Assembly (NCBI RefSeq): GCF_004681965.1
Contig: NZ_SMLL01000003.1
Coordinates: forward strand, 62,001-126,000
Source of the DNA: Ramlibacter rhizophilus
GTDB lineage: Bacteria > Pseudomonadota > Gammaproteobacteria > Burkholderiales > Burkholderiaceae_C
Length of the DNA: 64,000 nucleotides
Direction of reading: 5' to 3'
Below the pieces are notes generated by a model, which was not told the DNA's origin, did not search any database, and worked only from the letters and a program-made list of their open reading frames with translations. Each line of letters begins with the position of its first letter. Position 1 is the stretch's first letter. A program made the position numbers and the translations under genes. Positions 29,706 through 45,558 of the stretch are shown piece by piece.

Positions 29706-30607
29706 ACGCCGTGCCGTCTCCACCGGGCGCGCGCTCCATGAGCCGCTTCGCGCAGTTCCACGCCCTCACCAAGCCGCGCGTGGTGCAGCTGATCGTCTTC
29801 TGCGCGCTGATCGGCATGGTGCTGGCCGTGCCGGGCCTGCCGACCCTGGCCGAACTGCGCGTTGCCGCGCTGGCCTGCCTGGGCATCTGGCTCGTGGCGG
29901 GCGCCGCCGCCGCCTTCAACTGCCTGGTGGAAAAGGGCATCGACGCCAAGATGCGGCGCACCGCCTGGCGGCCCACGGCCAAGGGCGAACTGTCGGACCT
30001 GCAGGCGCTGCTCTTTTCCGCCGGGCTGTGTGCGGCGGGCTCCTGGCTGCTGTATGCCTGGGTCAACCCGCTGACCATGTGGCTCACCCTCGCCACCTTC
30101 GTGGGCTATGCGGTGGTCTACACGGTGATCCTCAAGCCACTCACGCCGCAGAACATCGTGATCGGCGGCGCCTCGGGCGCGATGCCGCCGGTGCTGGGCT
30201 GGACGGCCATGACCGGCGAGGTCGGCCCGCAGGCGCTGATCCTGTTCCTGATCATCTTCCTGTGGACGCCGCCGCACTTCTGGGCCCTGGCGCTGTACCG
30301 GGTGGAGGACTACCGCAAGTCGGGCCTGCCCATGCTGCCCGTGACGCACGGCAACGAGTTCACGCGCCTGCAGATCCTGCTCTACACGCTGGTGCTCTTC
30401 GCCGCCTGCCTGCTGCCCTTCGCCTACGGCATGAGTTCCTGGCTGTACCTGCTGGCCGCCGTGGTGCTGAGCGGGGCGTTCTGCGTCTATGGCTTCCGGC
30501 TCTGGCGCGAATACTCCGACGCGCTGGCCCGCAAGACCTTCCGCTTTTCCCTCATCCACCTGAGCGCGCTGTTCGCCGCCCTGCTGGTGGATCACTACCT
30601 GTTCTGA
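29702..30607 (+). CDS. ctaB: Protoheme IX farnesyltransferase (haem O synthase)
   Basis: A 301-residue UbiA-superfamily prenyltransferase with nine membrane helices. The prenyl-diphosphate motif is [20 protein letters not shown] and the second conserved loop is [27 protein letters not shown]. It attaches a farnesyl group to haem B, giving haem O for CtaA. The ATG at 29702 overlaps the ctaA stop; an internal ATG at 29738 ([15 protein letters not shown]) would also give a complete enzyme. Confidence 0.96.
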
Positions 30608-30621
30608 GACCCGGACTCGTG

Positions 30622-31209
30622 ATGCAACGCCGAACTCTTCTCTCCTGCCTGCTCGCGGCCGGCGCGCTCGCCGCCTGTGGCGAACCGAAGCCGCAGTTCA
30701 AGGCCGTCGACATCACCGGCGTGGATTACGCCCGCGACTTCCGCCTGAGCGACGCCCAGGGCCAGGCGCGCAGCCTCGCCGACTTCAAGGGCAAGGCGGT
30801 GGTGGTCTTCTTCGGCTTCACGCAGTGCCCGGACGTGTGCCCCACCACCATGACCGAGCTGGCCGAGGCCAAGCGCATGCTCGGCGCGCAGGGCGAGAAG
30901 GTGCAGGGTGTCTTCATCACCGTGGACCCGGAGCGCGACACGCCCGAGGTCCTGCGCGGCTACATCGCCAACTTCGACCCGAGCTTCGTCGCCTTGCGCG
31001 GCAGCCTGGCCGAGACCGAGCAGGTCGCCAAGGACTTCAAGGTCTATCACAAGAAGGTGGAAGGCAAGACGCCCGGCAGCTACACCATGGACCACACGGC
31101 CGCCAGCTTCGTCTTCGATCCGCAGGGCAAGCTGCGGCTCTACACCCGCTACGGCACCGGGCCCGAGGCCCTGGCCCACGACCTGAAGCTGCTGCTGCAG
31201 GGAGCGTGA
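30622..31209 (+). CDS. SCO family copper-binding lipoprotein
   Basis: A 195-residue thioredoxin-fold protein with a lipoprotein signal (LLAAGALAAC, lipid cysteine near residue 17), the copper motif CPDVC in FFGFTQCPDVCPTTM, and the distal histidine in MDHTAASFVFDP. Sco proteins load the CuA site of subunit II. It follows ctaB by 14 bases and closes the assembly operon. A GTG directly before the ATG is an alternative start. Confidence 0.95.
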   Translation: MQRRTLLSCLLAAGALAACGEPKPQFKAVDITGVDYARDFRLSDAQGQARSLADFKGKAVVVFFGFTQCPDVCPTTMTELAEAKRMLGAQGEKVQGVFITVDPERDTPEVLRGYIANFDPSFVALRGSLAETEQVAKDFKVYHKKVEGKTPGSYTMDHTAASFVFDPQGKLRLYTRYGTGPEALAHDLKLLLQGA

Positions 31210-31213
31210 GCCT

Positions 31214-32920
31214 CTAGAAGTTCAAAGGCCGGATGGCCCGGCGCGGCTCGGCGCGCATGGCGTTGCAGGCCTCCTCCAGCCAGCGCAGGCACCGGCTGGA
31301 GTCGAGCTCGTGGTCCGGCAGCAGCGTCACGGCGACGTGGAATTTCAGCGTGGTCGCGGGGGGCAGGGCGCTGGCGTGCTGCAGGCCCTGGGCGACGATC
31401 TGCTGCGCGCGGGACATGGCCACTTCACCCGTGGTGGGTCCTTCGAGCAGCAGGGCGAAATCACGCTCGCCGATGCGGGCGGCCAGGTCGATGTCGCTGG
31501 CCGCGCTGCGCAGGATGGAGGCGGCCACCAGCAGCGCGCGTTCGGCCGTCGCGCGGCCGAACTCGTAGTCCAGCGCGTCGTGGTTGGTCAGGCGCACGGC
31601 CAGCACGGCGCACTGGTGGCGCTGGCTGATGGCCCGGCGCAGCGACTCGTCGAGGCGGCGCAGCAGGGTGTCGCGGTCGCACAGGCCCGTCAGCGTGTCG
31701 GTGTGCGTGAGCTGCGCGGCCCGCAGCCCCGGCTCGCGGCGCCGATGGGCGCGCCGGCTCAGGGCGTAGTAGGTCAGGGGCAGTTGCAGCGCCGTGCCGA
31801 AGGTCAGGCCGTGGCGGGTGAGCAGGCCTTCGGGCAGCAGGCCGAGGACATAAGCGATCGGGAGCAGGGCGCCCACGATCGTCGGGACGAAGGCCGCCAC
31901 CATGAGCCCCAGGTAGGGATCGCGGCCGCGCCGCCAGGCGAGCACGAGCAGGCCGCCGGCCAGCGGGAGGGTCGCTCCCAGCAGCAGGGCGACCAGCGTG
32001 GCGCTGCCCCGCGTGGCGATGAAGCCATTGAGGGCCGTGGCGCCGAGCAGCGCCGCGATCAGGCCCCAGGTGGCCAGGTCCAGCAGACGCGAGAAGCGGG
32101 CCGGCCCGGTGAGCACCTTCACGAACCAGAGGCAGGCGGCAACGGCGCAGCCCGGAACGACCAGGTGGGCCATGGCGTTCCAGTGCGGCCAGTCGGTCCA
32201 CAGGTGCTGCGCGCCAACCCCCAGGTAGACCAGTTGGATCGCGACGATGCCGGCCAGGTAAACCGCGAAGGCGCCGAAGTTGCGGTCACGCCAGACGAGG
32301 GCCGCGACGACCGAGGCGGCCGCCAGGAACACCAGCACGCCGAAGTACCCGCCCAGCGTGAACTGCTCGAAGGCACGCAGCTCCAGCACGGCCGACTGGC
32401 TGTAGAAGTGCAGCGGCAGGCTGACCTCGGAACGCTCCCGCAGCACGCGCACCCAGTAACGCGTGCTGCCGTCCGAAGGAGGCGCCAGCTCGAAGGTGGG
32501 AAGGCGCCCCGGCACCGACCAGTCCTCCGTCGAGAGCGTCTGGCCGGCCGATTGGGTCACCCAGCGGCCATCGGGGCGGCGGTAGTGCAGCTCGATCAGG
32601 TCCACCGAGGGGTGCATCAGCACCAGGTACCAGCGGCTGTCCGGCGGCGTGGCGGCATCGAACTGCAGCCACAGGGCCTTGCCGTCGATCCGGTGCTGGC
32701 GTTGCGGCTGGAAGGGCTCCCAGGCCAGGCGGGAGGCGCCAGCGGCGATCTCCTCGGCGGTGCGGTAAGCCTTGTCGTCGATCCAGGCGAGCGCGCCGGG
32801 CCCGAGGGCGCTTGCGTCGCTGCTGCGCTCCAGGCGCAGCGGTGAAGGCGTCTGTGCGCTGGCCGTGGAGCCGATCCACGCCACGAGCAGCACCAGCGCC
32901 AAGCACCTGAAGAAGTTCAC
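31214..32920 (-). CDS. 7TMR-DISM sensor with degenerate GGDEF domain
   Basis: A 568-residue sensor protein: signal peptide (cleavage near ASA-QT), a periplasmic carbohydrate-binding-like 7TMR-DISMED2 domain (residues about 25-170), seven membrane helices (about 185-385), and a C-terminal GGDEF-family domain (about 405-560). The signature loop reads IGERDFALLLEG instead of GGDEF, and the inhibitory RxxD site is not evident. Diguanylate cyclase activity is therefore unlikely; it may act as a receptor or protein-interaction module. It is convergent with sco, 4 bases apart. Confidence 0.85.
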   Translation of the reverse strand: MNFFRCLALVLLVAWIGSTASAQTPSPLRLERSSDASALGPGALAWIDDKAYRTAEEIAAGASRLAWEPFQPQRQHRIDGKALWLQFDAATPPDSRWYLVLMHPSVDLIELHYRRPDGRWVTQSAGQTLSTEDWSVPGRLPTFELAPPSDGSTRYWVRVLRERSEVSLPLHFYSQSAVLELRAFEQFTLGGYFGVLVFLAAASVVAALVWRDRNFGAFAVYLAGIVAIQLVYLGVGAQHLWTDWPHWNAMAHLVVPGCAVAACLWFVKVLTGPARFSRLLDLATWGLIAALLGATALNGFIATRGSATLVALLLGATLPLAGGLLVLAWRRGRDPYLGLMVAAFVPTIVGALLPIAYVLGLLPEGLLTRHGLTFGTALQLPLTYYALSRRAHRRREPGLRAAQLTHTDTLTGLCDRDTLLRRLDESLRRAISQRHQCAVLAVRLTNHDALDYEFGRATAERALLVAASILRSAASDIDLAARIGERDFALLLEGPTTGEVAMSRAQQIVAQGLQHASALPPATTLKFHVAVTLLPDHELDSSRCLRWLEEACNAMRAEPRRAIRPLNF

Positions 32921-32942
32921 GCCCGCATTGTTGCCGCAAAAA

Positions 32943-32964
32943 AGCCCGGAAGCTCTTCCGGGCT
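32943..32964 (-). terminator. Rho-independent terminator of rpoH
   Basis: On the minus strand a ten-base-pair stem (AGCCCGGAAG / CTTCCGGGCT) with a two-base loop is followed by six T residues. It lies 25 bases after the rpoH stop codon. Confidence 0.92.
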
Positions 32965-32988
32965 GGGTTGGGTGTGGCGCCGGTGCGA

Positions 32989-33924
32989 TCAGGCGAAGGC
33001 GGCCAGGGCCTTGCGCATCTTCTTCATGGCGGCACCCTCGATCTGGCGGATGCGCTCGGCCGAGACGCCGTATTCGGCGGCCAGTTCGTGCAGCGTCATG
33101 CCGCCCGAGCCGTCGTCGTTGACCCGCAGCCAGCGTTCTTCAACGATGCGGCGGCTGCGCGGATCGAGCTGCTCGAGTGCGCTGGCGATGCCGTCGGTGG
33201 CCAGCACGTCGCGCTGGCGCGACTCGATCATCGAGGTCGGCTCGTGGCTCGCCTCGGTCAGGTAGGTGATGGGGCCGAAGGCCTCGTCGCCATCGTCGGA
33301 AGGCGAGGGGTCCAGCAGCACGTCGCCACCGGCCATGCGCGTTTCCATCTCGATGACTTCCTCGCGCTTGACGTTCAACTCGCGGGCCATCACCTCGATC
33401 TGCGCGTCGGTGAGGGTGTCGCGGTGGGTCTGCGCGCCGGCGTCGTCCTTGAAACCCTGCTTCATGGAGCGCAGGTTGAAGAACAGCTTGCGCTGGGCCT
33501 TGGTCGTCGCGACCTTGACCATGCGCCAGTTGCGCAGGATGTATTCGTGGATCTCGGCCTTGATCCAGTGCAGCGCGTAGCTCACCAGCCGCACGCCCTG
33601 GTCGGGGTCGAAGCGCTTGACGGCCTTCATGAGACCGATGTTGCCTTCCTGGATCAGGTCGCCGTGGGGCAGGCCATAGCCCAGGTATTTGCGGGAGACC
33701 GACACCACCAGGCGCAGGTGCGAAAGCACCAGCTTCCCGGCGGCCTCCAGGTCGTTGTCGTCCCGCAGCTTGCGCGCGTACTCCTGCTCTTCCTCAGGTG
33801 TGAGCATGGGCAGGCGGTTCACGGCAGAGATATAGGCGTCCAGGTTGCCCAGCGAGGGCACCACGGCCCAGGGGTTGGACACCGCCAGCGCGGTGCCGGA
33901 AGCTCCAACTGCGGAAGTGGACAT
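32989..33924 (-). CDS. rpoH: RNA polymerase sigma-32 (heat-shock sigma factor)
   Basis: A 311-residue sigma factor with region 2 (LVLSHLRLVVSVSRKYLGYGLPHGDLIQEGNIGLMKAVKRFDP), the RpoH box QRKLFFNLR near residue 145, and region 4 with GMTLHELAAEYGVSAERIRQIE. It directs transcription of heat-shock genes. I chose the ATG at 33924 (MSTSAVGASG), with AAAGGA upstream and family-like length. An in-frame ATG at 33957 is possible, but it abuts the CIRCE operator and would overlap the likely promoter. Confidence 0.96.
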   Translation of the reverse strand: MSTSAVGASGTALAVSNPWAVVPSLGNLDAYISAVNRLPMLTPEEEQEYARKLRDDNDLEAAGKLVLSHLRLVVSVSRKYLGYGLPHGDLIQEGNIGLMKAVKRFDPDQGVRLVSYALHWIKAEIHEYILRNWRMVKVATTKAQRKLFFNLRSMKQGFKDDAGAQTHRDTLTDAQIEVMARELNVKREEVIEMETRMAGGDVLLDPSPSDDGDEAFGPITYLTEASHEPTSMIESRQRDVLATDGIASALEQLDPRSRRIVEERWLRVNDDGSGGMTLHELAAEYGVSAERIRQIEGAAMKKMRKALAAFA

Positions 33925-33958
33925 GCCGAAGAGTCCTTTCGTCGTGTGCGTCGTCATA

Positions 33959-33985
33959 TTAGCACTCGATTGGAGGGAGTGCTAA
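33959..33985. promoter_or_regulatory. CIRCE operator (HrcA-binding site) upstream of rpoH
   Basis: A perfect inverted repeat: TTAGCACTC, nine-base spacer GATTGGAGG, GAGTGCTAA. This is the exact 9-9-9 consensus of CIRCE, the binding site of the heat-shock repressor HrcA. It lies 35-61 bases upstream of the preferred rpoH start. On the minus strand a TAATAT preceded by TG at 33956-33961 could be an extended -10 overlapping one arm, so HrcA binding would block rpoH transcription. It also lies 99 bases upstream of cutA on the other strand. Confidence 0.95.
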
Positions 33986-34083
33986 GCCGCAAGTTCCACG
34001 GATCGCGAAACGAGGCCCGCACGGGCGTCGGGGCGGCCGAGCGCCGCGCGCACAATCGCGGTCGGGCACCGGCAGGAGATGGG

Positions 34084-34407
34084 ATGGACACCGTACTGAG
34101 CATCACGACCACGGTCGACTCGGCCGAGGCGGCCCGGCAGCTGGCCCAGGAGCTCATCCGCCGCCGGCTGGCCGCCTGCGTGCAGGTCGACGAAGGCGTG
34201 AGCTCGCATTACCGCTGGGAGGGCCGGGACTGCCTGGACGCCGAGTGGCGGCTCACGGTCAAGACCCTGCCGTCCTGCCGGGCGGCGGTCGAAGCCTTTT
34301 TCGCCGCGGAGCACCCCTACCAACTGCCCCAGCTGTTGTGGCTGGAAATGCAGGCCAGCCCGGCCTATGCGGCCTGGGTCCGCGCCCAGGTCGGCGAAGC
34401 GGCGTAG
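34084..34407 (+). CDS. cutA: Divalent-cation tolerance protein CutA
   Basis: A 107-residue CutA1 protein with the family motifs LAACVQVDEGVSSHYRWEG and TLPSCRAAVEAFFAAEHPYQLPQLLWLEM. CutA forms very stable trimers of PII-like fold and has been linked to copper tolerance, with an uncertain molecular role. GGAG precedes the ATG. It diverges from rpoH; the CIRCE element lies in the shared upstream region. It is convergent with selD, 4 bases apart. Confidence 0.95.
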   Translation: MDTVLSITTTVDSAEAARQLAQELIRRRLAACVQVDEGVSSHYRWEGRDCLDAEWRLTVKTLPSCRAAVEAFFAAEHPYQLPQLLWLEMQASPAYAAWVRAQVGEAA

Positions 34408-34411
34408 CGCT

Positions 34412-35488
34412 TCAGCGCACCTGGAGCCGGGCCGCGCCGGACTCGGCCGCGAGCACCTCGCCCACGACGCCGGCCTGCTCGAATCCGTGACGGCGGAAGA
34501 GCGCCAGCACGGCCGGGACCGCCTCGGGCGTGCAGGACACCAGCAGGCCGCCGCTGGTCTGTGGATCGGACAGCAACGCCTGGTCCACGGCCGAGAAACC
34601 CTGCGGCAGCGCGACCTCGGCGCCGTAGCCGGCCCAGTTGCGGCCCGAGGCGCCGGTCACGAAACCGTCCGCGGCCAGTGCGCGCACCCCGTCCAGAAGC
34701 GGCACCTGCGCCCAGTCCAGGCGCACGCTGGCGCCAGCGCCGCGGGCCAGCTCGAGCGCATGGCCGGCCAGGCCGAAACCGGTCACGTCGGTCAGCGCAT
34801 GCACGCCCTCCAGCTGCGCCAGCTCGGGCCCGGGCGTGTTCAGGCGGGTGGTGGTCTCGATCATGCGCTGGTAACCCGCCGCATCCAGGGCTTCCTTCTT
34901 CAGCGCCGCCGACAGGATGCCCACGCCCAGGGGCTTGCCCAGCACCAGCACGTCGCCCGGCCGGGCGTCGGCGTTGCGCTTGACCTTGTCCGGATGGACC
35001 AGGCCCAGGGCCACCAGGCCGTAGATGGGCTCGACCGAGTCGATGGTGTGGCCGCCAGCGATGGGAATGCCGGCTGCGCGGCAGACCGATTCGCCGCCTT
35101 CCAGGATGCGGCCGATGGTGGTCGTCGACAGGACGTTGATCGGCATGCCCACCAGGGCCAGTGCCATGATGGGCTGCCCGCCCATCGCGTACACGTCGGA
35201 GATGGCGTTGGTCGCGGCGATGCGCCCGAAGTCGAAGGGGTCGTCGACGATGGGCATGAAGAAGTCGGTGGTGGCGATCAGCGCCTGCTCGTCGTTGAGC
35301 TTGTAGACGGCCGCGTCGTCGGCCGTCTCGATGCCCACCAGCAGCTGCGGCGGCAGCGGCATTCGCGCCGTGCCCTTGAGGATCTCGGACAGCACGCCCG
35401 GGGCGATCTTGCAGCCGCAGCCGCCGCCGTGCGACAGCGAGCTCAGGCGTGGTTCCATGGGGCTCTTGGCCGGGGCAGGGTGGCTCAT
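34412..35488 (-). CDS. selD: Selenide, water dikinase (SelD/SenC), cysteine form
   Basis: A 358-residue enzyme that makes selenophosphate from selenide and ATP. The catalytic loop is SHGGGCGCKIAP with Cys24 at the position that is Cys or selenocysteine in the family, and Lys27; there is no in-frame UGA, so this is the cysteine form. ATP-site motifs TADDAAVYKL and TDFFMPIVDDPFDFGRIAATNAISDVYAMGG follow. The ATG at 35488 overlaps the senB stop (ATGA). In this locus it supplies selenophosphate to the selenosugar synthase SenB. No selA/selB/selC was seen here, so a link to selenoprotein synthesis is not shown. Confidence 0.95.
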   Translation of the reverse strand: MSHPAPAKSPMEPRLSSLSHGGGCGCKIAPGVLSEILKGTARMPLPPQLLVGIETADDAAVYKLNDEQALIATTDFFMPIVDDPFDFGRIAATNAISDVYAMGGQPIMALALVGMPINVLSTTTIGRILEGGESVCRAAGIPIAGGHTIDSVEPIYGLVALGLVHPDKVKRNADARPGDVLVLGKPLGVGILSAALKKEALDAAGYQRMIETTTRLNTPGPELAQLEGVHALTDVTGFGLAGHALELARGAGASVRLDWAQVPLLDGVRALAADGFVTGASGRNWAGYGAEVALPQGFSAVDQALLSDPQTSGGLLVSCTPEAVPAVLALFRRHGFEQAGVVGEVLAAESGAARLQVR

Positions 35489-36480
35489 GATTGCTGCATT
35501 TCCTCGATCAGTTGAAGCAGCCGCTCGCGTTCCCGGGCCGGGTCGAACAAGGCGGCGCGAAGCTCGCATTGTCCGCGCAGTCGCTCCAGCAGCGGGCCGG
35601 CGTGGTCTTGGGCTTGCGCCTGCTGTTCGCGCCGGCACTGCCGCAGGCGCTCGGCCAGCGCGGCGGCGTCGCGGGGCTCGAAGTAGCCGAGGTAGTCCTC
35701 CCCCAGCATGCCGACGTTGCCCGGCACTCGCGAGGCGAGCACGGGCGTGCCGCTGCGCACGGCCTCCATGATCACGTGGGCGCCGCCTTCCAGCGCGCTG
35801 GTGTGCACGAGCAGGTGCGCGCGCTGGATGGCGTCGCGGGCGCGGGCGTGCGGCCGGGGACCCAGCCAGCGGTAGTGGGGGCATTGCGCCGCCACCTGCC
35901 GGGCCGCCTCGGCCCAGCCCGCCTCCGCCGCGTCGCCGATGTGGTCGATGCGGATGCCCTCGTCGGCTCGCAGCCGGCGCGCGGCCTCGAACAGCGTGCC
36001 TGGGTCCTTGACCTGGCGCAGGTGACCCACCATCACCGCCCGCAGCTCGCGCCGCGTCTTGGGCAGCGCCGCCCGCGCGCTGGTGGACTGGTAAATCACG
36101 CGGGCCTTGGCGCGCAAGGCCTCGGGCAGCGCCTCGATGCCGAGCGACTGCAGCACGACCAGGCGGCCGGCCTGCGCGGTGGATTCGCGGGCCAGCGGGT
36201 CTTCTGCCAGGTCCTGGTAGAGGTCGGTCCCCGTGAGGACCACGGCCAGCCGCCGGCCGCCGCGCGCCTCGGCCCAGGCGCGGATCGAGGATGCCGAGCG
36301 CCGCGCGTGCAGCGCGAGCATGAGATCGTCGCCCGCGGCGGCCGCATCGGGCCACTGCGCGGTGATGCGCACCGCATGGTCGCGGGCCAGCAGCGCGCGC
36401 CAGCGCCGTGCGGTCTGCCAGTTGCCATTGTTGGCGCTCGCCAGTGCGGGGCTTACGATGACGAGCGATGAGCGATCCAT
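35485..36480 (-). CDS. senB: Selenosugar synthase SenB (GT4-like glycosyltransferase)
   Basis: A 331-residue GT-B glycosyltransferase-like protein. The N-terminus LVIVSPALASANNGNWQTARRWRALL and the C-terminal donor-site region HTSALEGGAHVIMEAVRSGTPVLASRVPGN are typical of the family next to selD and senA. SenB of Variovorax joins selenophosphate with a UDP-sugar to form a selenosugar, the selenium donor for selenoneine. Its ATG at 36480 lies inside the senA coding region: the two divergent genes overlap by 13 bases. Translation is coupled to selD by a 4-base overlap. Confidence 0.92.
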   Translation of the reverse strand: MDRSSLVIVSPALASANNGNWQTARRWRALLARDHAVRITAQWPDAAAAGDDLMLALHARRSASSIRAWAEARGGRRLAVVLTGTDLYQDLAEDPLARESTAQAGRLVVLQSLGIEALPEALRAKARVIYQSTSARAALPKTRRELRAVMVGHLRQVKDPGTLFEAARRLRADEGIRIDHIGDAAEAGWAEAARQVAAQCPHYRWLGPRPHARARDAIQRAHLLVHTSALEGGAHVIMEAVRSGTPVLASRVPGNVGMLGEDYLGYFEPRDAAALAERLRQCRREQQAQAQDHAGPLLERLRGQCELRAALFDPARERERLLQLIEEMQQS

Positions 36481-37685
36481 TGGTCGGTTATAGCGTGCCG
36501 GCGCAGCACGCCCGCTGGGAGGCCGGGCAGCAACTGCGTTGCGGCGGCCCGCGTGCACTGTCGCGGGCGTTGCAGGCCGTGCGGGCTCGAACCCTGGCGC
36601 TGGCGGGCATGTATGCGCAGGCCCTCGGTCCGGCCATGGCCGTGCCCCCGCGCGAGACGCTCAATCCGCCGCGCTGGGAGCTGGGGCACGTGGCCTGGTT
36701 CCAGCAATGGTGGATCGAGCGCAATCCGCATCGCGCCCGGGGCTTTCGCGCCGATCCGCTGGTGCCGCGGCCGCCCTCGGACCTGCCCGAGGCCGACGCC
36801 TGGTACGACTCCGGCGCGGTGCCGCATGCCACGCGCTGGGACCTGCCCCTGCCGCCGCTGGCGAGCACGCTGGACTGGCTCGGTTCGACCCAGGCCCGCA
36901 CGCTCGCCCTGCTCGAGGGCCTGCCCGACGACGCCGACGACGACGCCCTGTATTTCTTCCGCCTGGCCTGCCTGCACGAGGCCATGCACGTCGAAGCGGC
37001 GGCCTACATGGCCCGCTCGCTCGGTTTCCTGGACCCGGGCACGCCCGATGGGCAAGCTGGGCAGTGCGGCCCCGCATCGCTGCACCTGCCCGCGCAGGCG
37101 TGGACCACCGGCTGGTGCGGCCCGGGGTTCGCCTTCGACAACGAATTGCCTGCCCGTCGCCTCTCGCTCGATGCCTTCCAGATCGACGCCGACCCCGTCT
37201 CCTGGGACCGCTTCGCCGGCTTCGTCGAGGCCGGTGGCTATGCCAATGCCCGCTGGTGGACCGCGCCGGGCTGGGCCTGGAGGCTGCGGGCGCGTCCCCA
37301 CGCACCCACCTTCCCCACCGGCAGCGAAGCGGCCCTGCACCTGAGCGCCCACGAGGCCGAGGCCTGGTGCCGCTGGGCCGGCAGGCGCCTGCCCACCGAG
37401 GCCGAATGGGAATGCGCGGCCATGACGGCCCCGGGCTTCCGATGGGGCGACTGCTGGGAGTGGACCGGGTCCGTCTTCGCGCCGCTGCCGGGCTTCGAGC
37501 CGCATCCCTACCTGGACTATTCACAGCCCTGGTTCCGCAGCCGGCGCGTGCTCAAGGGCGCCTCGCCCTGGACCCCGGCGTGCCTGGCCCATCCGCGCTT
37601 TCGCAACTTCTATCCGCCGGCGCGCTGCGACATCTTCGCGGGCTTTCGCAGCTGTGCGCCAGCGGTGGACGCGCCTGCGGTGTAA
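36468..37685 (+). CDS. senA: Selenoneine synthase SenA (EgtB-like)
   Basis: A 405-residue iron enzyme of the EgtB/sulfatase-modifying-factor group. The N-terminal DinB-like domain has the three iron ligands: His74 in WELGHVAWFQQWW and His170/His174 in CLHEAMHVEAA. The C-terminal FGE-type domain runs through LPTEAEWECAAM and CWEWTGSVFAP to FAGFRSC. SenA couples the SenB selenosugar to hercynine, on the way to selenoneine. EgtB-like ergothioneine or OvoA activity is an alternative from sequence alone, but neighbouring senB and selD favour SenA. The ATG at 36468 is used; a GTG at 36495 is the next in-frame option. Confidence 0.92.
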   Translation: MSDPLVGYSVPAQHARWEAGQQLRCGGPRALSRALQAVRARTLALAGMYAQALGPAMAVPPRETLNPPRWELGHVAWFQQWWIERNPHRARGFRADPLVPRPPSDLPEADAWYDSGAVPHATRWDLPLPPLASTLDWLGSTQARTLALLEGLPDDADDDALYFFRLACLHEAMHVEAAAYMARSLGFLDPGTPDGQAGQCGPASLHLPAQAWTTGWCGPGFAFDNELPARRLSLDAFQIDADPVSWDRFAGFVEAGGYANARWWTAPGWAWRLRARPHAPTFPTGSEAALHLSAHEAEAWCRWAGRRLPTEAEWECAAMTAPGFRWGDCWEWTGSVFAPLPGFEPHPYLDYSQPWFRSRRVLKGASPWTPACLAHPRFRNFYPPARCDIFAGFRSCAPAVDAPAV

Positions 37686-37715
37686 TCCAGCCTCCTCACC
37701 CTTCCCGGATCTGCC

Positions 37716-38588
37716 ATGCACGACACCTCGCGCCGTCGCGTCCTCCTGGGCGCCCTGACCTCGACCGCCGCCTTCGCGCTGCCCGCCTGGGTGGGAGCGC
37801 AGGGCACGCCGCTGCGCGTGACGGCCATTCCCGACGAGTCGCCGACCGAGCTGGCGCGCAAGGCCGCGCCGCTCATGCGCTACCTCGGCGAGCGCCTGGG
37901 CACGAAGGTGGAGTTCACGCCCGTGACGGACTATGCGGCCGCCGTGGAGGCGCTGGTCAACGGGCAGGTGGACCTGGCCTGGTTCGGCGGCTTCACCTTC
38001 GTGCAGGCCAACCATCGCTCGGGCGGCAAGGTCCTCCCCCTGGTGCAGCGCGAAGAGGACGAGAAGTTCCGCTCGGTCTTCATCACCACCGACCCGGCCA
38101 TCCGTTCGCTGGCCGACCTCAAGGGCAAGACCCTGAGTTTCGGATCGCCCTCCAGCACCTCGGGGCACCTCATGCCGCGCAGCTTCATGCTGGCCGCGGG
38201 CGTCGACCCCGACCGCGACCTGCGGCGCGTGGCCTACTCCGGCGCGCACGATGCGACGGCGGCGGCCGTGGCCTCGGGCAAGGTGGATGCCGGCGCGCTG
38301 AACATCTCGGTATGGGACAAGCTGGTGTCCGACGGCAAGGTCGATCCGGCCAAGGTGCGCGTCTTCTACACCACGCCGCCTTACTACGACTACAACTGGA
38401 GCGTGAACGCCGCTATGCCCGCCGAGCGGCGCCAGAAGCTGGTGCAGGCCTTCACCGACCTGTCCCCCGAGACCCCGCACGGCAAGGAGATCCTGGGCCT
38501 GCAGCGCGCGAGCCGCTTCATCCCCACGCGCGCCGAGAACTACCGCGGCATCGAGGCCGCTGCCCGCAGTGCCGGGCTGCTGAAGTGA
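37716..38588 (+). CDS. PhnD-type ABC substrate-binding protein, putative selenium-oxyanion binder
   Basis: A 290-residue periplasmic binding protein. A twin-arginine-like signal (TSRRRVLLGALTSTAAFALP, cleavage near GAQ) is followed by the PhnD fold: VTAIPDESPTELARKAAPLMRYL, VNGQVDLAWFGGFTF, KTLSFGSPSSTSGHLMPRSFML. The PhnD family binds phosphonate or phosphite, but members beside selD/senB are annotated as putative selenate or selenium transporters. It starts 30 bases after senA and precedes the ATPase and permeases, so the four genes form one transport unit. The true ligand is untested. Confidence 0.82.
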   Translation: MHDTSRRRVLLGALTSTAAFALPAWVGAQGTPLRVTAIPDESPTELARKAAPLMRYLGERLGTKVEFTPVTDYAAAVEALVNGQVDLAWFGGFTFVQANHRSGGKVLPLVQREEDEKFRSVFITTDPAIRSLADLKGKTLSFGSPSSTSGHLMPRSFMLAAGVDPDRDLRRVAYSGAHDATAAAVASGKVDAGALNISVWDKLVSDGKVDPAKVRVFYTTPPYYDYNWSVNAAMPAERRQKLVQAFTDLSPETPHGKEILGLQRASRFIPTRAENYRGIEAAARSAGLLK

Positions 38589-38613
38589 TGCGCATCGCGC
38601 GCGGAGTCCCGCG

Positions 38614-39438
38614 GTGAAGCTCGCGCTGGAGCGGCTGTCGCTGCGCCATCCCGCCGCGCGGGGCGCACCGGCCCTGGACCTGGACGCACTGCAGCTCGCT
38701 TCCGGCGAGCAGCTGGCCATCGTCGGCCCGTCGGGCGCGGGCAAGACGACGCTGCTGCACGCCCTGGCCTGCGCGCTGCGTCCCAGGTCCGGGCGATTGC
38801 TGCTCGACGGCGCCGACCCCTGGGCGCTGTCCGCGCGCGAGTTGAGGCGGCTGCGTGCCGAGCTGTTCCTCGCGCCGCACATTCCGCCGCTGCCGCCGCG
38901 CCAGCGCGTGGTCACGGCCGTCCTCGCGGGCAGGCTGCCCCGCATGGGCTTGTGGCAGAGCCTGCGCAGCCTCTTCTATCCCGTCGGCATCGCGGACGCG
39001 GACGCCGCCCTGGAGCGTTTCGACCTGGCCGACAAGCTCTTCGCGCGCGTGGACCGGCTCTCCGGCGGCGAGCGCCAGCGCGTGGGACTGGCGCGGGCCC
39101 TGGTCGCCCGGCCCAGGCTGCTGCTGGTGGACGAGCCGCTGTCCGCCCTGGACCCGGCCCGTGCGCGGCAGGCCATGCAGGCGCTCACCGAGAGCGCCCG
39201 ACAGCAGGGCGCCACGCTGGTGTGCACCATGCACGACGTGCCCATGGCGCTGGCGCATTTCCCGCGCGTGCTGGGCCTGCAGGGCGGCGCCCTGGCCTTC
39301 GACCTGCCGGTGGGCGAGGTCACGCCCGAGCGCCTGCAGGCGCTGTACGCGCGCCATCCCGAGGAACTGGCGGGCCTGCCCGCCGCGCGCGACGAGCCGC
39401 CGGCACCGGTCGGCGCTGCGCGCATGCATTGCCGCTGA
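38614..39438 (+). CDS. ABC transporter ATP-binding protein (PhnC-like)
   Basis: A 274-residue ABC ATPase: Walker A GPSGAGKTTL near residues 37-46, signature LSGGERQRVGLARALVARP, Walker B LLLVDEPLSALD, H-loop TMHDVPMAL. It resembles PhnC and energises the two downstream permeases. The GTG at 38614 is taken as start with GGAG eight bases upstream. Compared with PhnC it has an Ala/Pro-rich tail (AARDEPPAPVGAA) and a variable region with LPPRQRVVTAVLAGRLPRMG. Confidence 0.88.
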   Translation: MKLALERLSLRHPAARGAPALDLDALQLASGEQLAIVGPSGAGKTTLLHALACALRPRSGRLLLDGADPWALSARELRRLRAELFLAPHIPPLPPRQRVVTAVLAGRLPRMGLWQSLRSLFYPVGIADADAALERFDLADKLFARVDRLSGGERQRVGLARALVARPRLLLVDEPLSALDPARARQAMQALTESARQQGATLVCTMHDVPMALAHFPRVLGLQGGALAFDLPVGEVTPERLQALYARHPEELAGLPAARDEPPAPVGAARMHCR

Positions 39439-39453
39439 GCAGGGACCCCAGGC

Positions 39454-40344
39454 ATGCCGGACCCAGGCCCGCGCAGGAGCGCCCTCGGCGGCATGCTCCA
39501 TCCGGCCCCCGCCGGGGCCGCCCTGCCAGCCCGCCACCTGCGCGACCCGGCCTGGACCGGGCGCCTCTTCTGGCTGCTGGCCGCGGCCGTCGTGCTGTGG
39601 CCCCTGGCGGTGGCCGCGGAGTTCCGTCCCTGGGAACTCTTCGCGCCCGAGAGCCTGCGCGCCACGCTGCGCTTCCTGGCCGACTTCTTTCCGCCGCGGC
39701 TGGATGCGGAGTTCCTCGGCCTGGTGCTGCGCGAGACCTGGCGCACGGTCGCCATCGCCACCGCGGGGCTGGCGCTGGCCTTGGTCGTGGCCATTCCGTT
39801 TGCGCTGCTGTCGGTGCGCAGCCTGTCCATCTCGGCGCTCGCCGGGCCCATGCACAAGGCGCCGGCCGCACTGCGCTGGGTGGTGCGCGGCGTGCTCGTG
39901 GTGCTGCGCAGCGTGCCCGAGCTGATCTGGGCCCTGGTCTTCGTGCGCGTGGTGGGCCTGGGGCCCACGGCCGGCGTGCTGGCCATCGCGCTCACCTACG
40001 CCGGCATGCTGGGCAAGGTCTATGGCGAAATCCTGGAAAGCGGCGAGCGCGAACCCACCCTCGCCCTGCTGCGCGGCGGCTCCGGGCGCTTGCAGGCCTT
40101 CTTCTACGGCATGCTGCCGCAGAACGCCGCGGAGCTGACCAGCTACACGGTCTATCGCTGGGAGTGCGCCATCCGGTCCTCGGCCGTGCTGGGCTTCGTC
40201 GGCGCGGGCGGCCTGGGGCAGCAGATGGACAACGCCATGAAGATGTTCAACGGCAGCGAGGTGGCCACGCTGCTGCTGGTCTTCGTGCTGCTGGTGGCGG
40301 GCTGCGACCGCATGAGCGCCTGGCTGCGCCGCAGCCTGGGTTGA
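39454..40344 (+). CDS. ABC transporter permease 1 (PhnE-like)
   Basis: A 296-residue permease with about six membrane helices and the PhnE-type motifs RSVPELIWALVFVRVVGLGPTAGVLAIAL and TVYRWECAIRSSAVLGFVGAGGLGQQMDNAMKMF. It is one half of the membrane channel; the second half is encoded next. It starts 15 bases after the ATPase. An ATG at 39493 could be the true start, as the first 13 residues are proline/arginine-rich and poorly conserved in appearance. Confidence 0.88.
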   Translation: MPDPGPRRSALGGMLHPAPAGAALPARHLRDPAWTGRLFWLLAAAVVLWPLAVAAEFRPWELFAPESLRATLRFLADFFPPRLDAEFLGLVLRETWRTVAIATAGLALALVVAIPFALLSVRSLSISALAGPMHKAPAALRWVVRGVLVVLRSVPELIWALVFVRVVGLGPTAGVLAIALTYAGMLGKVYGEILESGEREPTLALLRGGSGRLQAFFYGMLPQNAAELTSYTVYRWECAIRSSAVLGFVGAGGLGQQMDNAMKMFNGSEVATLLLVFVLLVAGCDRMSAWLRRSLG

Positions 40345-40355
40345 GGAAGCGGGTC

Positions 40356-41189
40356 ATGAACGAGCCGCGCCGTCCTGCCGCCAACGAGGTCTATCGCCTG
40401 CCGCCGCCGCTCTTCGACGCGCGCTGCAAGGCCTGCTGGTTCGTGCTCGCTGTCGTCGCGCTGGTGGTCCTGAGCTTCTGGTCGCTGGACCTGCAGTGGG
40501 GTCGCTTCGTCTCGGCCCAGGCGCTCGATCGCATGGGGCAGTTCCTGCTGCAGCTGCTCGCGCCCAGCACCGAGGCGGCCTTCCTGCTGCGGCTCGTGCC
40601 GGCCGTTTTCGAGACGCTCGCCATGTCCGTGCTGGGCACGCTGCTGGCCGCGGTGGCAGGCCTGGTGATCGCCTTTCCCGCCAGTCGCCTGCCGGGCGCC
40701 GAGGCGAGTGTCTGGCGCGGCCCCGCGCGCCTCCTGCTCAATGCCTTGCGCAGCATCCCCGAACTGGTCTGGGCCGCGCTGCTGCTGGTGTCGGCCGGGC
40801 TCGGGCCATTGGCCGGTACGCTGGCGCTGGCCCTGCACACCACGGGCGTGCTGGGGCGCCTGTTCGCCGAGGCGATCGAGAACGCACCGCCCGGCCCGGC
40901 CTTCGCGCTGCGGGTGCGGGGCGTGGGTGAGGGGCGGGTGCTGATGTGGGCCGTGCTGCCGCAGGTGCTGCCGCAGCTGGTGAGCTACACGCTCTATCGC
41001 TGGGAGAACAACATCCGCGCCGCCGCCGTGCTGGGCGTGGTGGGTGCCGGCGGCCTCGGGCAGATGCTGGCCTTCCATCTCGGCCTGTTCCAGATGCCCG
41101 AGACCTCCTCGGTGCTGGCGGCCATGCTGGTGCTGGTGCTGGCGGTCGATGCGGTCAGCGTGCTCGCGCGCGAGCGGCTGATGCGCTAG
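40356..41189 (+). CDS. ABC transporter permease 2 (PhnE-like)
   Basis: A 277-residue PhnE-like permease, paralogous to the preceding one: RSIPELVWAALLLVSAGLGPLAG and LYRWENNIRAAAVLGVVGAGGLGQMLAFHL align with it. Two different permeases make a heterodimeric channel. The CKACWF segment near residue 23 gives two cysteines at the start of the first helix. The stop codon overlaps the stop of ftsY on the other strand: the shared CTAG at 41186-41189 provides TAG on both strands. Confidence 0.88.
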   Translation: MNEPRRPAANEVYRLPPPLFDARCKACWFVLAVVALVVLSFWSLDLQWGRFVSAQALDRMGQFLLQLLAPSTEAAFLLRLVPAVFETLAMSVLGTLLAAVAGLVIAFPASRLPGAEASVWRGPARLLLNALRSIPELVWAALLLVSAGLGPLAGTLALALHTTGVLGRLFAEAIENAPPGPAFALRVRGVGEGRVLMWAVLPQVLPQLVSYTLYRWENNIRAAAVLGVVGAGGLGQMLAFHLGLFQMPETSSVLAAMLVLVLAVDAVSVLARERLMR

Positions 41190-42472
41190 CGCCCCAGCAG
41201 GGCCAGCGAGAACTCGCGGGCGTTGAAGGTCTGCAGGTCTTCCAGCTTCTCGCCCACGCCGATGAAGTACACCGGCACCGGCTTTTCCTGCGCAATGGCG
41301 GCCAGCACGCCGCCCTTGGCCGTGCCGTCCAGCTTGGTCACGATCAGGCCCGTCAGGCCCAGCGCCGCGTCGAAGGACTTGACCTGCGCCAGCGCGTTCT
41401 GCCCGGTGTTGCCATCGATCACCAGCAGCACCTCGTGCGGGCCGCTCGGGTCGGCCTTCTGCACCACGCGCTTGATCTTCTTGAGCTCCTCCATCAGGTG
41501 CAGCTGCGTGGGCAGGCGACCGGCCGTATCCACCAGCACCACGTCCTTGCCGCGGGCCCGGCCGGCGCTCACGGCGTCGAAGCTCACCGCGGCCGGGTCG
41601 CCGCCTTCCTGGCTCACGATCTCGACGCGGTTGCGGTCCGCCCAGACGGCGAGCTGCTCGCGCGCGGCGGCGCGGAAGGTGTCGGCCGCCGCCAGCAGCA
41701 CCGTGGCGCCGCTGTCGGCGAGGTGGCGGGTCAGCTTGCCGATGGAGGTGGTCTTGCCCGCGCCGTTGACGCCGGCGACCATGATCACGGTCGGCTCGTG
41801 CTGGCCGATCACCAGGGGCTTCTGCAGCGGCAGCAGCAGCTGCGTCAGCACCTCGGCCAGGATGTTCTTGACCTGCACCGGACGCGTCGCGCCGGTGGAC
41901 TGCACCTTGCGCTTGACCTCGGCCAGCAGCCATTCGGTGGCCGCCACGCCGGCATCGGCCATGAGCAGCGCGGATTCGAGCTCCTCGTACAGCGCGTCGT
42001 CGATCTGGCCGCCGGTGAAGACCTGCGACAGGTTGGAGCCGGTCTTGCGCAGGCCATCGCTCAGCTTGCTGAACCAGCCGCGCCGCTCCGGCGCGACCTC
42101 GGCCGCGGGCGTGGCCACCGGGATGTCCATGGCCTGGACCAGGGCGCTGCCGATCAGGCCGCTGTCCGGCGGCCCGGGCTCGGCGACGCGCGCCGCTTCG
42201 GCGGGTGCGACCTCGGCGGCGACCGGATCGGGCGGCGGCGGCACGGGTGCCGGCTCAGGCGCCAGCGCAGCGGGCGTGGGCGGCGGCACCGGCGGTGCGG
42301 CGACTTCGACCGGCGTGGGCACGGGCTCGGGTGCAGCGGGCGGGGGTTCGGCGACCGGCGCCTGGACAGGTGCGGCGCTGGCTGGTGCGGGCGCCTCGAC
42401 GCCTTCGGTCGGCGCGGCGACTTCGGGTGCTGGTGGGGCAGCCGGCTTTTTTTTCCGGAAGAAACTGAACAT
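41186..42472 (-). CDS. ftsY: Signal recognition particle receptor FtsY
   Basis: A 428-residue SRP receptor GTPase. A basic N-terminus (MFSFFRKKKP) is followed by a Pro/Ala/Glu-rich acidic A domain (to about residue 125), then the N and G domains with GVNGAGKTTSIGKLTRHL, DTAGRLPTQLHLMEEL and TKLDGTAKGGVLAAI. It docks ribosome-SRP complexes at the inner membrane. The ATG at 42472 is chosen over a TTG three bases upstream. A run of eight A residues in the coding strand (42447-42454) encodes the lysines near the start. It diverges from the M16 peptidase gene. Confidence 0.95.
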   Translation of the reverse strand: MFSFFRKKKPAAPPAPEVAAPTEGVEAPAPASAAPVQAPVAEPPPAAPEPVPTPVEVAAPPVPPPTPAALAPEPAPVPPPPDPVAAEVAPAEAARVAEPGPPDSGLIGSALVQAMDIPVATPAAEVAPERRGWFSKLSDGLRKTGSNLSQVFTGGQIDDALYEELESALLMADAGVAATEWLLAEVKRKVQSTGATRPVQVKNILAEVLTQLLLPLQKPLVIGQHEPTVIMVAGVNGAGKTTSIGKLTRHLADSGATVLLAAADTFRAAAREQLAVWADRNRVEIVSQEGGDPAAVSFDAVSAGRARGKDVVLVDTAGRLPTQLHLMEELKKIKRVVQKADPSGPHEVLLVIDGNTGQNALAQVKSFDAALGLTGLIVTKLDGTAKGGVLAAIAQEKPVPVYFIGVGEKLEDLQTFNAREFSLALLGR

Positions 42473-42501
42473 CAATGAGCTTTGGCGACTCAGACGATTC
42501 T

Positions 42502-43938
42502 ATGAAACAACTCCTGCAGAGCTTCCTGGGCGTGGGCCTCCTGGCCGCCGCCCTGGCCTCGGCGGCCCAGCCGAGCGCGCCGCCACCGGTCCCCACCCCG
42601 CAGGTGGCGAGCGCCAACGCCCCGGCGGTCCACCAGTACACCCTCTCCAATGGCATGACCCTCATCGTCAAGCCCGACCGGCGGGCGCCTACGGCCGTGC
42701 ACATGGTCTGGCTGCGCGTGGGGTCCATGGACGAGACCGACGGGCAGTCGGGCGTGGCGCACGTGCTCGAGCACATGCTTTTCAAGGGCACGCGCGAGCT
42801 CAAGCCCGGCGAGTTCTCGCGCCGCGTGGCCGCGCTGGGCGGCAGCGACAACGCCTTCACCGCCCGTGACTACACCGGCTACCACCAGCAGATCCCGGCC
42901 GAGCGCCTGGAAGACGTGATGCGCCTGGAGGCCGACCGCTTCGCCAACAACCAGTGGCCGGACGAGGAGTTCCGCCGCGAGCTGGAGGTGGTCAAGGAGG
43001 AGCGCCGCCTGCGCGTCGAGGACTCGCCCCGCGCCCGCCTCTACGAGACGCTCAACGCCACGGCCTTCCTGGCCTCGCCCTACCGCCGCCCCATCGTCGG
43101 CTGGATGAGCGATCTCGAAGCCCTGACGCCCGAGGATGCCCGCGAGTTCTACCGCCGCTGGTACGTGCCGGCGAACGCTGCCGTCGTGGTGGCGGGCGAC
43201 GTCGATCCGCAGCAGGTCCTGAAGCTGGCCGAGCGGCACTACGGCCGCATCCCGGCCCGCCCGGTGCCGGCGCGCAAGCCGCAGGGCGAGCCCACGCAGC
43301 ACGGACCTCGCCAGGTCGAGGTCCGGGCGCCGGCGGACCAGCCCTACACCACCCTGCAGTTCAAGGTGCCCAAGCTCAGCTCCTTCGAACCCACGCCGCA
43401 GAATGACGACGCGCTGGCGCTGTCCATGCTGGCGGCGGTGCTGGATGGCCACGCGGCGGCGCGGCTGAACCGCGCGCTCACGCAGGGCCCGGACCGCGTG
43501 GCCGACAGCGCCGGTGCGTCCAACGGGCTGTGGGGCCGCGGCCCCCAGCTTTTCGCGCTCGATGGCGTGCCGGCCCCGGGCAAGACGCCGCAGCAGGTCC
43601 AGGCGGCGCTGCGCGCCGAAGTCGAGCGCATCGCCCGCGAGGGCGTGAGCGAGGCGGAGCTGCAGCGCGTCAAGACCCGCTGGATCGCCGGCGAGGTGTA
43701 CAAGCTCGATTCGCTGTTCAACCAGGCGCGCGAACTCGGCGCGTACTGGGTCTATGACCTGCCGATGGATGCCGGCGAGCGCCTGCTGCGGCGCCTCGGC
43801 GAGATCACGCCCGCGCAGGTGCAGTCCGTCGCGGCCCGCTACTTCGGCGACGAACAGCTCACCGTCGGCACGCTCAAGCCCCTGCCGCGCGACAAGCAGG
43901 CGCCCCCGCGCGCTCCCGCGGCTGGCGCGCGCCACTGA
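42502..43938 (+). CDS. M16 family zinc peptidase (catalytic)
   Basis: A 478-residue secreted peptidase: signal peptide (MKQLLQSFLGVGLLAAALASA), zinc-binding HxxEH motif HVLEHMLFKG with His87, Glu90 and His91, and the downstream glutamate in ELEVVKEERRLRVEDSP. Pitrilysin-like enzymes degrade peptides in the periplasm. The ATG at 42502 is preferred over one 27 bases upstream, because the signal peptide starts there. It forms a pair with the following gene, which lacks the zinc site; the two probably assemble as a heterodimer, as in other bacterial M16B pairs. Confidence 0.93.
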   Translation: MKQLLQSFLGVGLLAAALASAAQPSAPPPVPTPQVASANAPAVHQYTLSNGMTLIVKPDRRAPTAVHMVWLRVGSMDETDGQSGVAHVLEHMLFKGTRELKPGEFSRRVAALGGSDNAFTARDYTGYHQQIPAERLEDVMRLEADRFANNQWPDEEFRRELEVVKEERRLRVEDSPRARLYETLNATAFLASPYRRPIVGWMSDLEALTPEDAREFYRRWYVPANAAVVVAGDVDPQQVLKLAERHYGRIPARPVPARKPQGEPTQHGPRQVEVRAPADQPYTTLQFKVPKLSSFEPTPQNDDALALSMLAAVLDGHAAARLNRALTQGPDRVADSAGASNGLWGRGPQLFALDGVPAPGKTPQQVQAALRAEVERIAREGVSEAELQRVKTRWIAGEVYKLDSLFNQARELGAYWVYDLPMDAGERLLRRLGEITPAQVQSVAARYFGDEQLTVGTLKPLPRDKQAPPRAPAAGARH

Positions 43939-45353
43939 TGACCGGTTTACTTCCCATGAACAGAATCCCCGTGACAAGCTTCCGTGCGCTGGCCCATGCA
44001 GGCCAGGGCCTCTTCATCGCGCTCTCGCTCCTGGCTGGCGCTCCGGCATTGGCGGCGCTGCCGATCCAGCACTGGGTGCAGGACAGCGGCGCCAAGGTTT
44101 ACCTCGTCGAATCGCCCTCGCTGCCCATGGTGGACGTGCAGATCGACTTCGATGCCGGCTCGCGGCGCGAGCCGGCGGGGCAGGTCGGCCTGGCCAACGC
44201 GACGGCCAGCCAGACCGCCAGCGGCATCCGGCGCCAGGACGGCGCGGCGGACGGCCCCTATGAATCGGCGCTGGACGAGAACCAGCTCAGCGAAGCCTGG
44301 TCCGACCTCGGCGCCGGCTTCGGCGGCTCGGCCGGCAGCGACCGCATGAGTTTCACCCTGCGGTCCCTGAGCGACCCGGCCGTGCTGTCGCGCGCGGTCA
44401 ACCTCGCGGCGCGCCAGCTGGGGCAGCCCGCCTATCCCTCCGACGTGTGGCAGCGCGATCGCGAACGCGCGGTCGCGGCCATCCGCGAAGCCAACACCCG
44501 CCCCGGCACGGTGGCGGGCAAGGCCTACCGGGCCGCGGTCTATGGCGGCCATCCCTACGGCTGGGAGGTGACCGAGTCCACGCTGGCCGCCATCTCGGTG
44601 GACGACATGCGGCGCTTCCATGCCCGCTACCTGCAGCCGTGCCGGGCCAAGGTCAGCATCGTGGGCGCGGTGGACCGGGCGCAGGCCGACCAGCTCGCCC
44701 GCCGGATGCTGTCGCTGCTGCCGCAGGGGCAGCGCTGCGAACCGCTGCCGTCCGTGGCCGAGGTGCCGCCGCTGACCCAGCCCGTGCGCCTGGACATTCC
44801 CTTCGAGTCGGCGCAGGCCCATGTGCTGCTCGGCCAACCCGGCGTCCGCCGCGACGACCCCGACTACTTCCCGCTGCTGGTGGGCAACTACATCCTGGGC
44901 GGCGGCGGCTTCGTCTCGCGCCTGTCCACCGAGGTGCGCGAGAAGCGGGGCCTGTCGTACAGCGTCTCCAGCCACTTCGCGCCCGGCCGCCATGCCGGCG
45001 CCTTCACGGTCGGCCTGCAGACCCGGCCCGACCAGGCGGGCCAGGCGGTGTCCGTCGTGCGCGAGGTCATCGAGCGCTTCGTGGCGCAGGGCCCCACCGC
45101 GCAGGAGCTCGCGGCCGCCAAGGACTACATGGTGGGCAGCTTCGCGCTGCGCCTGGACAGCAACGCCAAGCTGCTCGGCAACTTGGCGGCGATCGCCTGG
45201 CACGAGCTGCCGCTCGACTACCTGGACACCTGGCAGGACCGCGTGCGCGCGCTCAGCGCCGCGGACGTGCGCTCGGCCTTCCAGCGTGCCTTGCAGCCCG
45301 ATCGCATGGCGGTCGTCACGCTGGGCGCTGCAGGCGCGGCCGCCAGCCGATGA
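43938..45353 (+). CDS. M16 family peptidase-like protein lacking the zinc motif
   Basis: A 471-residue paralogue of the preceding peptidase with a signal peptide (FIALSLLAGAPALA). The HxxEH motif is missing: the aligned region reads GLANATASQTASG. The C-terminal half keeps the M16 feature LGGGGFVSRLSTEVREKRGLSYSVSSHF, including the RY/RGLSY substrate-contact motif. It is likely the non-catalytic partner. Its ATG shares one base with the previous stop (TGATG); an ATG at 43956 is an alternative. Confidence 0.92.
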   Translation: MTGLLPMNRIPVTSFRALAHAGQGLFIALSLLAGAPALAALPIQHWVQDSGAKVYLVESPSLPMVDVQIDFDAGSRREPAGQVGLANATASQTASGIRRQDGAADGPYESALDENQLSEAWSDLGAGFGGSAGSDRMSFTLRSLSDPAVLSRAVNLAARQLGQPAYPSDVWQRDRERAVAAIREANTRPGTVAGKAYRAAVYGGHPYGWEVTESTLAAISVDDMRRFHARYLQPCRAKVSIVGAVDRAQADQLARRMLSLLPQGQRCEPLPSVAEVPPLTQPVRLDIPFESAQAHVLLGQPGVRRDDPDYFPLLVGNYILGGGGFVSRLSTEVREKRGLSYSVSSHFAPGRHAGAFTVGLQTRPDQAGQAVSVVREVIERFVAQGPTAQELAAAKDYMVGSFALRLDSNAKLLGNLAAIAWHELPLDYLDTWQDRVRALSAADVRSAFQRALQPDRMAVVTLGAAGAAASR

Positions 45354-45479
45354 ACCCTGTCAACGCTGTCAGCCCGCTGTCCGCCTCGGCCAGCCCAAGC
45401 GTAGAAAATCACGGCGTTCTGTCACACCAAGGTTCCGGCGCCAGCCAGGAATGGTGACCAGGGAGCAAGAAGGCAGTTT

Positions 45480-45509
45480 GAACGCGGCACGTGCCGCGTT
45501 CTTTTTTTT
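45480..45509 (+). terminator. Strong intrinsic terminator after the M16 pair
   Basis: Ten-base-pair stem GAACGCGGCA / TGCCGCGTTC with a two-base loop, followed by eight T residues. It lies 127 bases after the second M16 stop codon and 50 bases before rsmD. The long distance leaves a 126-base transcribed region with no recognisable gene. Confidence 0.95.
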
Positions 45510-45558
45510 GCGGCTTCGCGGCCCGAAGCGGCCGTGCCGTGGCGATAAGCTGCGCGCC

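Follow-up and report, generated by a model that had tools for sequence, protein, structure and literature searches.

A candidate selenium-oxyanion ABC importer of the PhnD type beside the selenoneine genes of Ramlibacter rhizophilus

We analyzed a window of 64,000 nucleotides from the Ramlibacter rhizophilus genome (contig NZ_SMLL01000003.1, positions 62,001–126,000; G000:C6:62001-126000, with G000 denoting the window's genome), in which selD, senB and senA are clustered with a complete PhnD/PhnC/PhnE/PhnE-type ATP-binding cassette (ABC) importer at 34412–41189. The four transporter genes probably encode an importer of selenium oxyanions, most likely of selenite, and we place the probability of this reading at about two in three. 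From gene content, linkage, family score, tree position and pocket residues we infer the substrate, the direction of transport and the choice of selenite over selenate.

The periplasmic binding protein of the importer (37716–38588, forward strand) is a member of the NCBIfam family TIGR04553 by score (390.6 bits against a curated cut-off of 250; PF12974, 246.3 bits) and scores below the cut-off of the PhnD equivalog TIGR03431 (160.6 against 261.1 bits). TIGR04553 is a hypothetical equivalog named "putative selenate ABC transporter" substrate-binding protein; the name is a database prediction, and the guess that selenium is the substrate is therefore not new. In 329 Pseudomonadota genomes the family is sharply bounded, with 27 copies in 26 genomes scoring at least 326.6 bits and the next best match scoring 171.2. 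selD was found in 24 of the 26 carriers versus 78 of the 303 other genomes (Fisher p = 1.4e-11, uncorrected for kinship), and phnJ, a gene of the carbon-phosphorus (C-P) lyase, in 3 of 26 versus 58 of 303 (p = 0.44). Ten of the 27 copies lie within 10 kilobases (kb) of selD and none within that distance of phnJ; for the 123 lower-scoring relatives among the matches listed, the counts are 0 near selD and 34 near phnJ. A phnJ profile search of the window's genome gave no match. An original prediction for this DNA, made from its sequence, had proposed selenium uptake rather than phosphonate import, and these counts support it; the PhnD score and the phnJ linkage led us to reject a phosphonate importer. 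The same prediction was to be abandoned if the transporter subfamily proved to occur mostly beside C-P lyase or phosphite genes. Our survey covered phnJ, the C-P lyase half of this condition, and on that half the prediction stands.

Two loci of the family have unusual surroundings. At L092 (G271:C6:97533-99344), a single ATPase and two permeases come after a tandem pair of TIGR04553 binding proteins that adjoins selD. At L093 (G143:C1), tblastn with the window queries gave no ATPase or permease match within about 10 kb of the binding protein, which perhaps has a different role.

Within the genus, the importer occurs in 22 of the 60 genomes, and senB is also present in 19 of these. In all 19 genomes with both, the importer and senB profile matches lie 230–1383 base pairs (bp) apart, and the linkage of the importer to the sen genes is more than chance. 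The association of mere presence is modest (19/22 versus 21/38, Fisher p = 0.022); when restricted to the 45 genomes with completeness of 90% or more and contamination of 5% or less, it is 13/14 versus 19/31 (p = 0.038). With selD found in 56 of 61 genomes searched in the genus, the importer is optional for selenium use. The transporter had also been called dedicated to selenoneine, and this description has to be given up: 20 of the 26 carriers in the survey have no senB match (senB is found in 6, selA in 15 and selU in 23), and 21 of the 60 genomes of the genus have senB without the importer. It looks instead like a general selenium importer that is often joined to sen loci.

The linkage extends beyond the genus. 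We compared 80 loci, the best of 584 relatives from a scan of genome contigs, a choice that favors close, mostly beta-proteobacterial relatives; neighboring genes were sought by tblastn at over 85 bits and up to 10 kb away, and 22 of the loci are shorter than 20 kb. selD was found in 39 loci, egtD in 31, senB in 24, senA in 21 and egtB in 19; among the 58 loci of at least 20 kb, 30 have selD, senA or senB. The order selD, senB, senA, (egtD), importer recurs in Ramlibacter, Caenimonas, Roseateles, Rubrivivax and Limnobacter. Three Janthinobacterium loci (L147, L150, L159) combine the importer with mnmH and selD, and a Sphaerotilus plasmid carries, in one co-directed run, mnmH (selU), the ATPase, a permease gene of about 560 codons, the binding protein and selD. 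In a 1.9-Mb genome of the same order (G202), a senA-like gene, selD, the four transporter genes, egtD and senB lie within about 7.5 kb; the SenA score of the senA-like protein (379.4 bits) is below the cut-off of 420 and far above its EgtB score of 194.4. Clustering of 4807 open reading frames (ORFs) from the neighborhoods, a mechanical and noisy set, gave no further neighbor in more than 14 loci; mnmH was picked out later with its own query, not by this clustering. A search of viral contigs with the PhnD1 chain found no relative. At six loci or genomes (L108, L111, L122, G334, G357, G359) senB lies close to the importer or egtD with no room or match for senA between them, and senA may there be elsewhere, lost or replaced.

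The pocket of the binding protein would favor selenite as the oxyanion. With the mature domain modeled from 37812, the window protein has the pocket DYTSSTSHNDY and keeps, as mapped by alignment, every ligand-contact residue of PhnD1 (D, Y, T, S-STS, H, N, D, Y), which are the residues around phosphate in the Synechococcus protein (Shah et al. 2023, PMC10284923). Bisson et al. 2017 (PMC5700983) class marine picocyanobacterial PhnD1 (PDB 7S6G, 5LQ5 and 5LQ8) as their "group 3". PhnD1 falls inside TIGR04553 by score and by tree: with a PtxB-type outgroup it nests in the TIGR04553 clade (100/100; 97/96 in a second tree) and groups with gamma- and alpha-proteobacterial members (100/96 and 100/99 in the two trees, with long branches flagged in both). 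Binding of hypophosphite to PhnD1 was not measurable, and its authors infer that three oxygens in a trigonal array are needed (PMC10284923). All three oxygens of selenite would be gripped by the pocket, and the capping tyrosine would cover the side of the ion where phosphite has its P–H and selenite its lone pair. Ten loci (L170, L173, L174, L176, L177, L180, L181, L183, L184 and also L031) show a coordinated swap of D8/N164/D193 to E/D/N, which may mark a difference in ligand or affinity.

Several observations weigh against an importer of selenite. In the survey, 17 of the 27 TIGR04553 copies lie farther than 10 kb from selD, and no selD was found in two of the 26 carriers: G263, which is 78% complete, and G143, which is 100% complete and whose binding protein lacks the capping tyrosine. 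None of selD, egtD, senB, senA and egtB was found in 28 of the 80 loci. The measured members of the family, PhnD1 proteins, bind phosphite at 0.05–4.3 µM and phosphate at 7–182 µM (PMC10284923, Table 1). Three proteins linked to selD and senB (L009–L011) have Asn at both 164 and 193, so that the acidic acceptor is not universal. Finally, a plasmid of Burkholderia vietnamiensis carries a relative, 41.7% identical and under the cut-off at 221.2 bits, next to an annotated phosphonate dehydrogenase gene; the pocket of this relative differs at 2 of 11 positions. This locus (L192, CP000618.1:178726-191490), on a plasmid typed as conjugative and flanked by transposase and integrase genes, is likely a phosphite cassette, and phosphite transport is probably close by in the importer's family. 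Because the L192 pocket is nearly the same, the pocket alone cannot separate phosphite from selenite; together with L009–L011, this led us to reject naming the ligand by the pocket alone.

The family name would have the importer take up selenate, to be reduced through selenite to selenide, and the linkage to selenium genes fits selenate equally well. Against this reading, selenate, like sulfate, is unprotonated at neutral pH. The window protein keeps D193 (counted from 37812), which in PhnD1 is a hydrogen-bond acceptor from the ligand, and PhnD1 prefers phosphite over phosphate by at least about ten times; its authors also dismissed sulfate in the crystal using X-ray data around the sulphur edge (PMC10284923). 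On the other side, PhnD1 has the same pocket and does bind four-oxygen phosphate, so the cap admits four-oxygen ions (PMC10284923), and the Asn residues of L009–L011 again show that the acceptor is not shared by all. Taken together, we consider selenate an unlikely substrate. It is slightly harder still to credit that the importer carries phosphite or phosphate, its place beside selD and the sen genes being functionally meaningless or a matter of phosphorus supply. Phosphite is the best ligand of the measured PhnD1 members, and the B. vietnamiensis relative shows a similar protein next to phosphonate dehydrogenase; in the tree, however, this relative is placed outside the clade of TIGR04553 (97/96, on a long branch). 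Also speaking against phosphorus are the absence of phnJ near any of the 27 copies and the fact that linkage to selD, senB, mnmH and egtD turns up repeatedly across several lineages. Two Synechococcus strains carrying PhnD1 are reported to be unable to grow on phosphite or methylphosphonate, and oceanic PhnD1 expression is reported not to track phosphate (PMC10284923). A third alternative, that the substrate is some other small anion of the XO3 type or a sulfur compound (sulfite, for example) with a use alongside the ergothioneine genes and that selenium is incidental, seems very improbable to us. Ten of the 80 loci do have egtB and egtD with no selD, senA or senB within reach; egtD, however, also provides hercynine to SenA, no egtD was seen in some loci that combine selD, mnmH and the importer, and the importer tracks selD across genomes.

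If the importer brings in selenite, the ion would be reduced to selenide, which SelD would convert to selenophosphate; SenB would then make the selenosugar, and SenA would couple selenium to hercynine, the product of EgtD, to give selenoneine. The original prediction had seen a full path to selenoneine, and this holds for the genome but not within the locus, as egtD lies on another contig (G000:C1:123517-124407; TIGR03438, 399.1 bits). The same imported selenium would also feed SelA for selenocysteine (selA at G000:C8:34166-35506) and SelU for selenouridine (selU at G000:C5:18072-18989). Since both SelA and SelU are present in the genome, the importer would serve the selenium economy of the cell at large, while its genes lie in the sen locus in this lineage. 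The window SelD has no match to the oxidoreductase model TIGR03169, and the window itself does not account for reduction to selenide. In relatives, a candidate for this step is an oxidoreductase domain fused to SelD: beside the importer, SelD proteins of 756–775 amino acids with an N-terminal extension are encoded at L069:6195-8462, L110:3961-6285, L137:3083-5374, L136:3222-5537 and L170:7354-9639, with the TIGR03169 domain confirmed in L069 and L137 (513.9 and 518.5 bits). SelD-fusion loci that also have senB are L069–L071, L110, L136 and L137. At L129:814-3155 the fusion is split into two pieces in different frames, through a sequencing error or in a broken gene.

All seven genes of the cluster lie where the original prediction had placed them, by profile scores and by our reading of the sequence, and the spacing it described is confirmed. 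selD/senC, for the selenophosphate-making selenide water dikinase, occupies 34412–35488 on the reverse strand (NF002098, 539.7 bits, cut-off 299; TIGR00476, 428.9, cut-off 125); it was scanned as 34412–35440, and the start at 35488, read from the sequence, would if used give an ATGA overlap with the senB stop. senB, for selenosugar synthase, follows at 35485–36480 on the same strand (TIGR04348, 416.7 bits, cut-off 300); it was scanned as 35485–36504, and its start was set by the sequence and the N-termini of relatives. senA, for selenoneine synthase, an EgtB-like iron enzyme, lies at 36468–37685 on the forward strand (NF041186, 450.7 bits, cut-off 420; EgtB model TIGR03440, 199.5 bits, under its cut-off of 360). 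The senA, senB and senC/selD families thus occur together, each above its cut-off. senA, the binding protein gene, the ATPase gene (38614–39438; PF00005, 91.7 bits; best NCBIfam model PhnC at 175, below the cut-off of 266.1) and the genes of the two PhnE-type permeases (39454–40344; TIGR01097, 212 bits, cut-off 216.7; PF00528, 47.1; and 40356–41189; TIGR01097, 253.3 bits; PF00528, 53.3) are all co-directional, with successive gaps of 30, 25, 15 and 11 bp, the first of which runs from the senA stop to the binding-protein ATG. The second permease was scanned as 40341–41189, and its start was read from the sequence. A binding protein (PF12974), an ATPase (PF00005) and two permease domains (PF00528, twice) make the importer complete; its ATPase and permeases are standard ABC components.

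senB and senA run divergently from abutting or overlapping starts at 36468–36495: senB has its ATG at 36480, and senA starts at the ATG at 36468 or at an alternative, later GTG at 36495. This arrangement is common to the window and the Ramlibacter loci L106 and L107. When the window is aligned with L106, L107 and L109, all four have the same TTATAGC string just within senA, and a senB promoter may lie within the coding start of senA. A promoter and terminator scan of 35400–37800 detected nothing, and an Rfam scan of 30000–46000 gave no match at the gathering score. The N-terminal signal of the binding protein (37716–37800) has an SRRR run resembling a twin-arginine translocation (Tat) signal, and some relatives have paired arginines before the hydrophobic stretch. 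Elsewhere in the genome, a third SenA/EgtB-like protein (G000:C11:141986-143170; L186:7984-9213), below cut-off for both SenA (310.4 bits) and EgtB (149), is encoded close to the genes of a LysR regulator and of a TRAP transporter.

Set against known systems, the window protein is a member of TIGR04553 by score, and we argue for selenite where the family name says selenate. It shares 22–25% identity with the arsenite- and arsenate-binding proteins AioX and ArrX, whose role is sensory. The PtxB phosphite-binding proteins (PDB 5O2J, 5JVB, 5LV1) form a separate clade (100/100 branch), and the best models of the nine locus proteins scanned include no dehydrogenase. From the C-P lyase-linked PhnDCE of Escherichia coli (PhnD, PDB 3P7I) the window protein differs in family score and in linkage, and its cap is a tyrosine at the place of Asp205 in E. 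coli PhnD (PMC5700983). A structural comparison (VIA-align) re-examined the top 1000 Foldseek chains and covers the families among them. The sen locus of Variovorax paradoxus (Kayrouz et al. 2022, via PMC9814287 and PMC10891094) has the three matching genes side by side; both accounts name senA–senC only, with no transporter seen in them. Marine PhnD1/PhnDCE has been described as a binder of phosphite, phosphate and methylphosphonate with tesA as its conserved neighbor (PMC10284923).

PhnD1 may also be a selenite importer. Its authors term its role paradoxical, and phosphite is unusable by a known route in most strains. PhnD1CE is reported for every one of the 97 sequenced strains that one database contains (PMC10284923). 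Prochlorococcus and Synechococcus have a SelD with an NADH-dehydrogenase-like extension as well as ybbB (Zhang et al. 2005, PMC1273633), and SelD fusions of this cyanobacterial type adjoin the importer in proteobacteria. Against a selenium role of PhnD1 stand its conserved neighbor tesA, the induction in phosphorus-deficient medium cited for one strain and the large thermal shifts seen only with phosphorus sources (PMC10284923). We suggest only tentatively that TIGR04553 importers are the long-sought selenium-specific uptake systems of bacteria, with selenite as ligand, and that PhnD1CE is one of them, its "phosphite" affinity being mimicry of selenite by an ion of similar shape and its real job being supply for the NADH-dehydrogenase–SelD fusion and ybbB (selU).

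Reviews from 2022 (PMC9312934) and 2026 (PMC13188914) state that no high-affinity selenium transporter and no specific high-affinity prokaryotic selenium transport system, respectively, has been identified, and in a 2024 study of an archaeon none of five putative transporters was required (PMC11097638). The phrase "putative selenate ABC transporter" occurs in PMC13077682. An ABC-transporter ATPase has been noted near orphan selD genes (2016 survey, PMC5029168; PMC9312934). Our literature search, covering top-ranked and mostly open papers, found no report that connects selenium uptake with PhnD1 or any other protein of the PhnD type. New here are the numbers that set the family apart from C-P lyase-linked relatives, the change from a dedicated to a general importer, the case for selenite and the placement of cyanobacterial PhnD1 in the same clade. 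The locus offers a concrete candidate for a selenium importer, comprising four genes and a defined pocket, and connects this candidate with the published PhnD1 paradox in abundant ocean phototrophs (PMC10284923).

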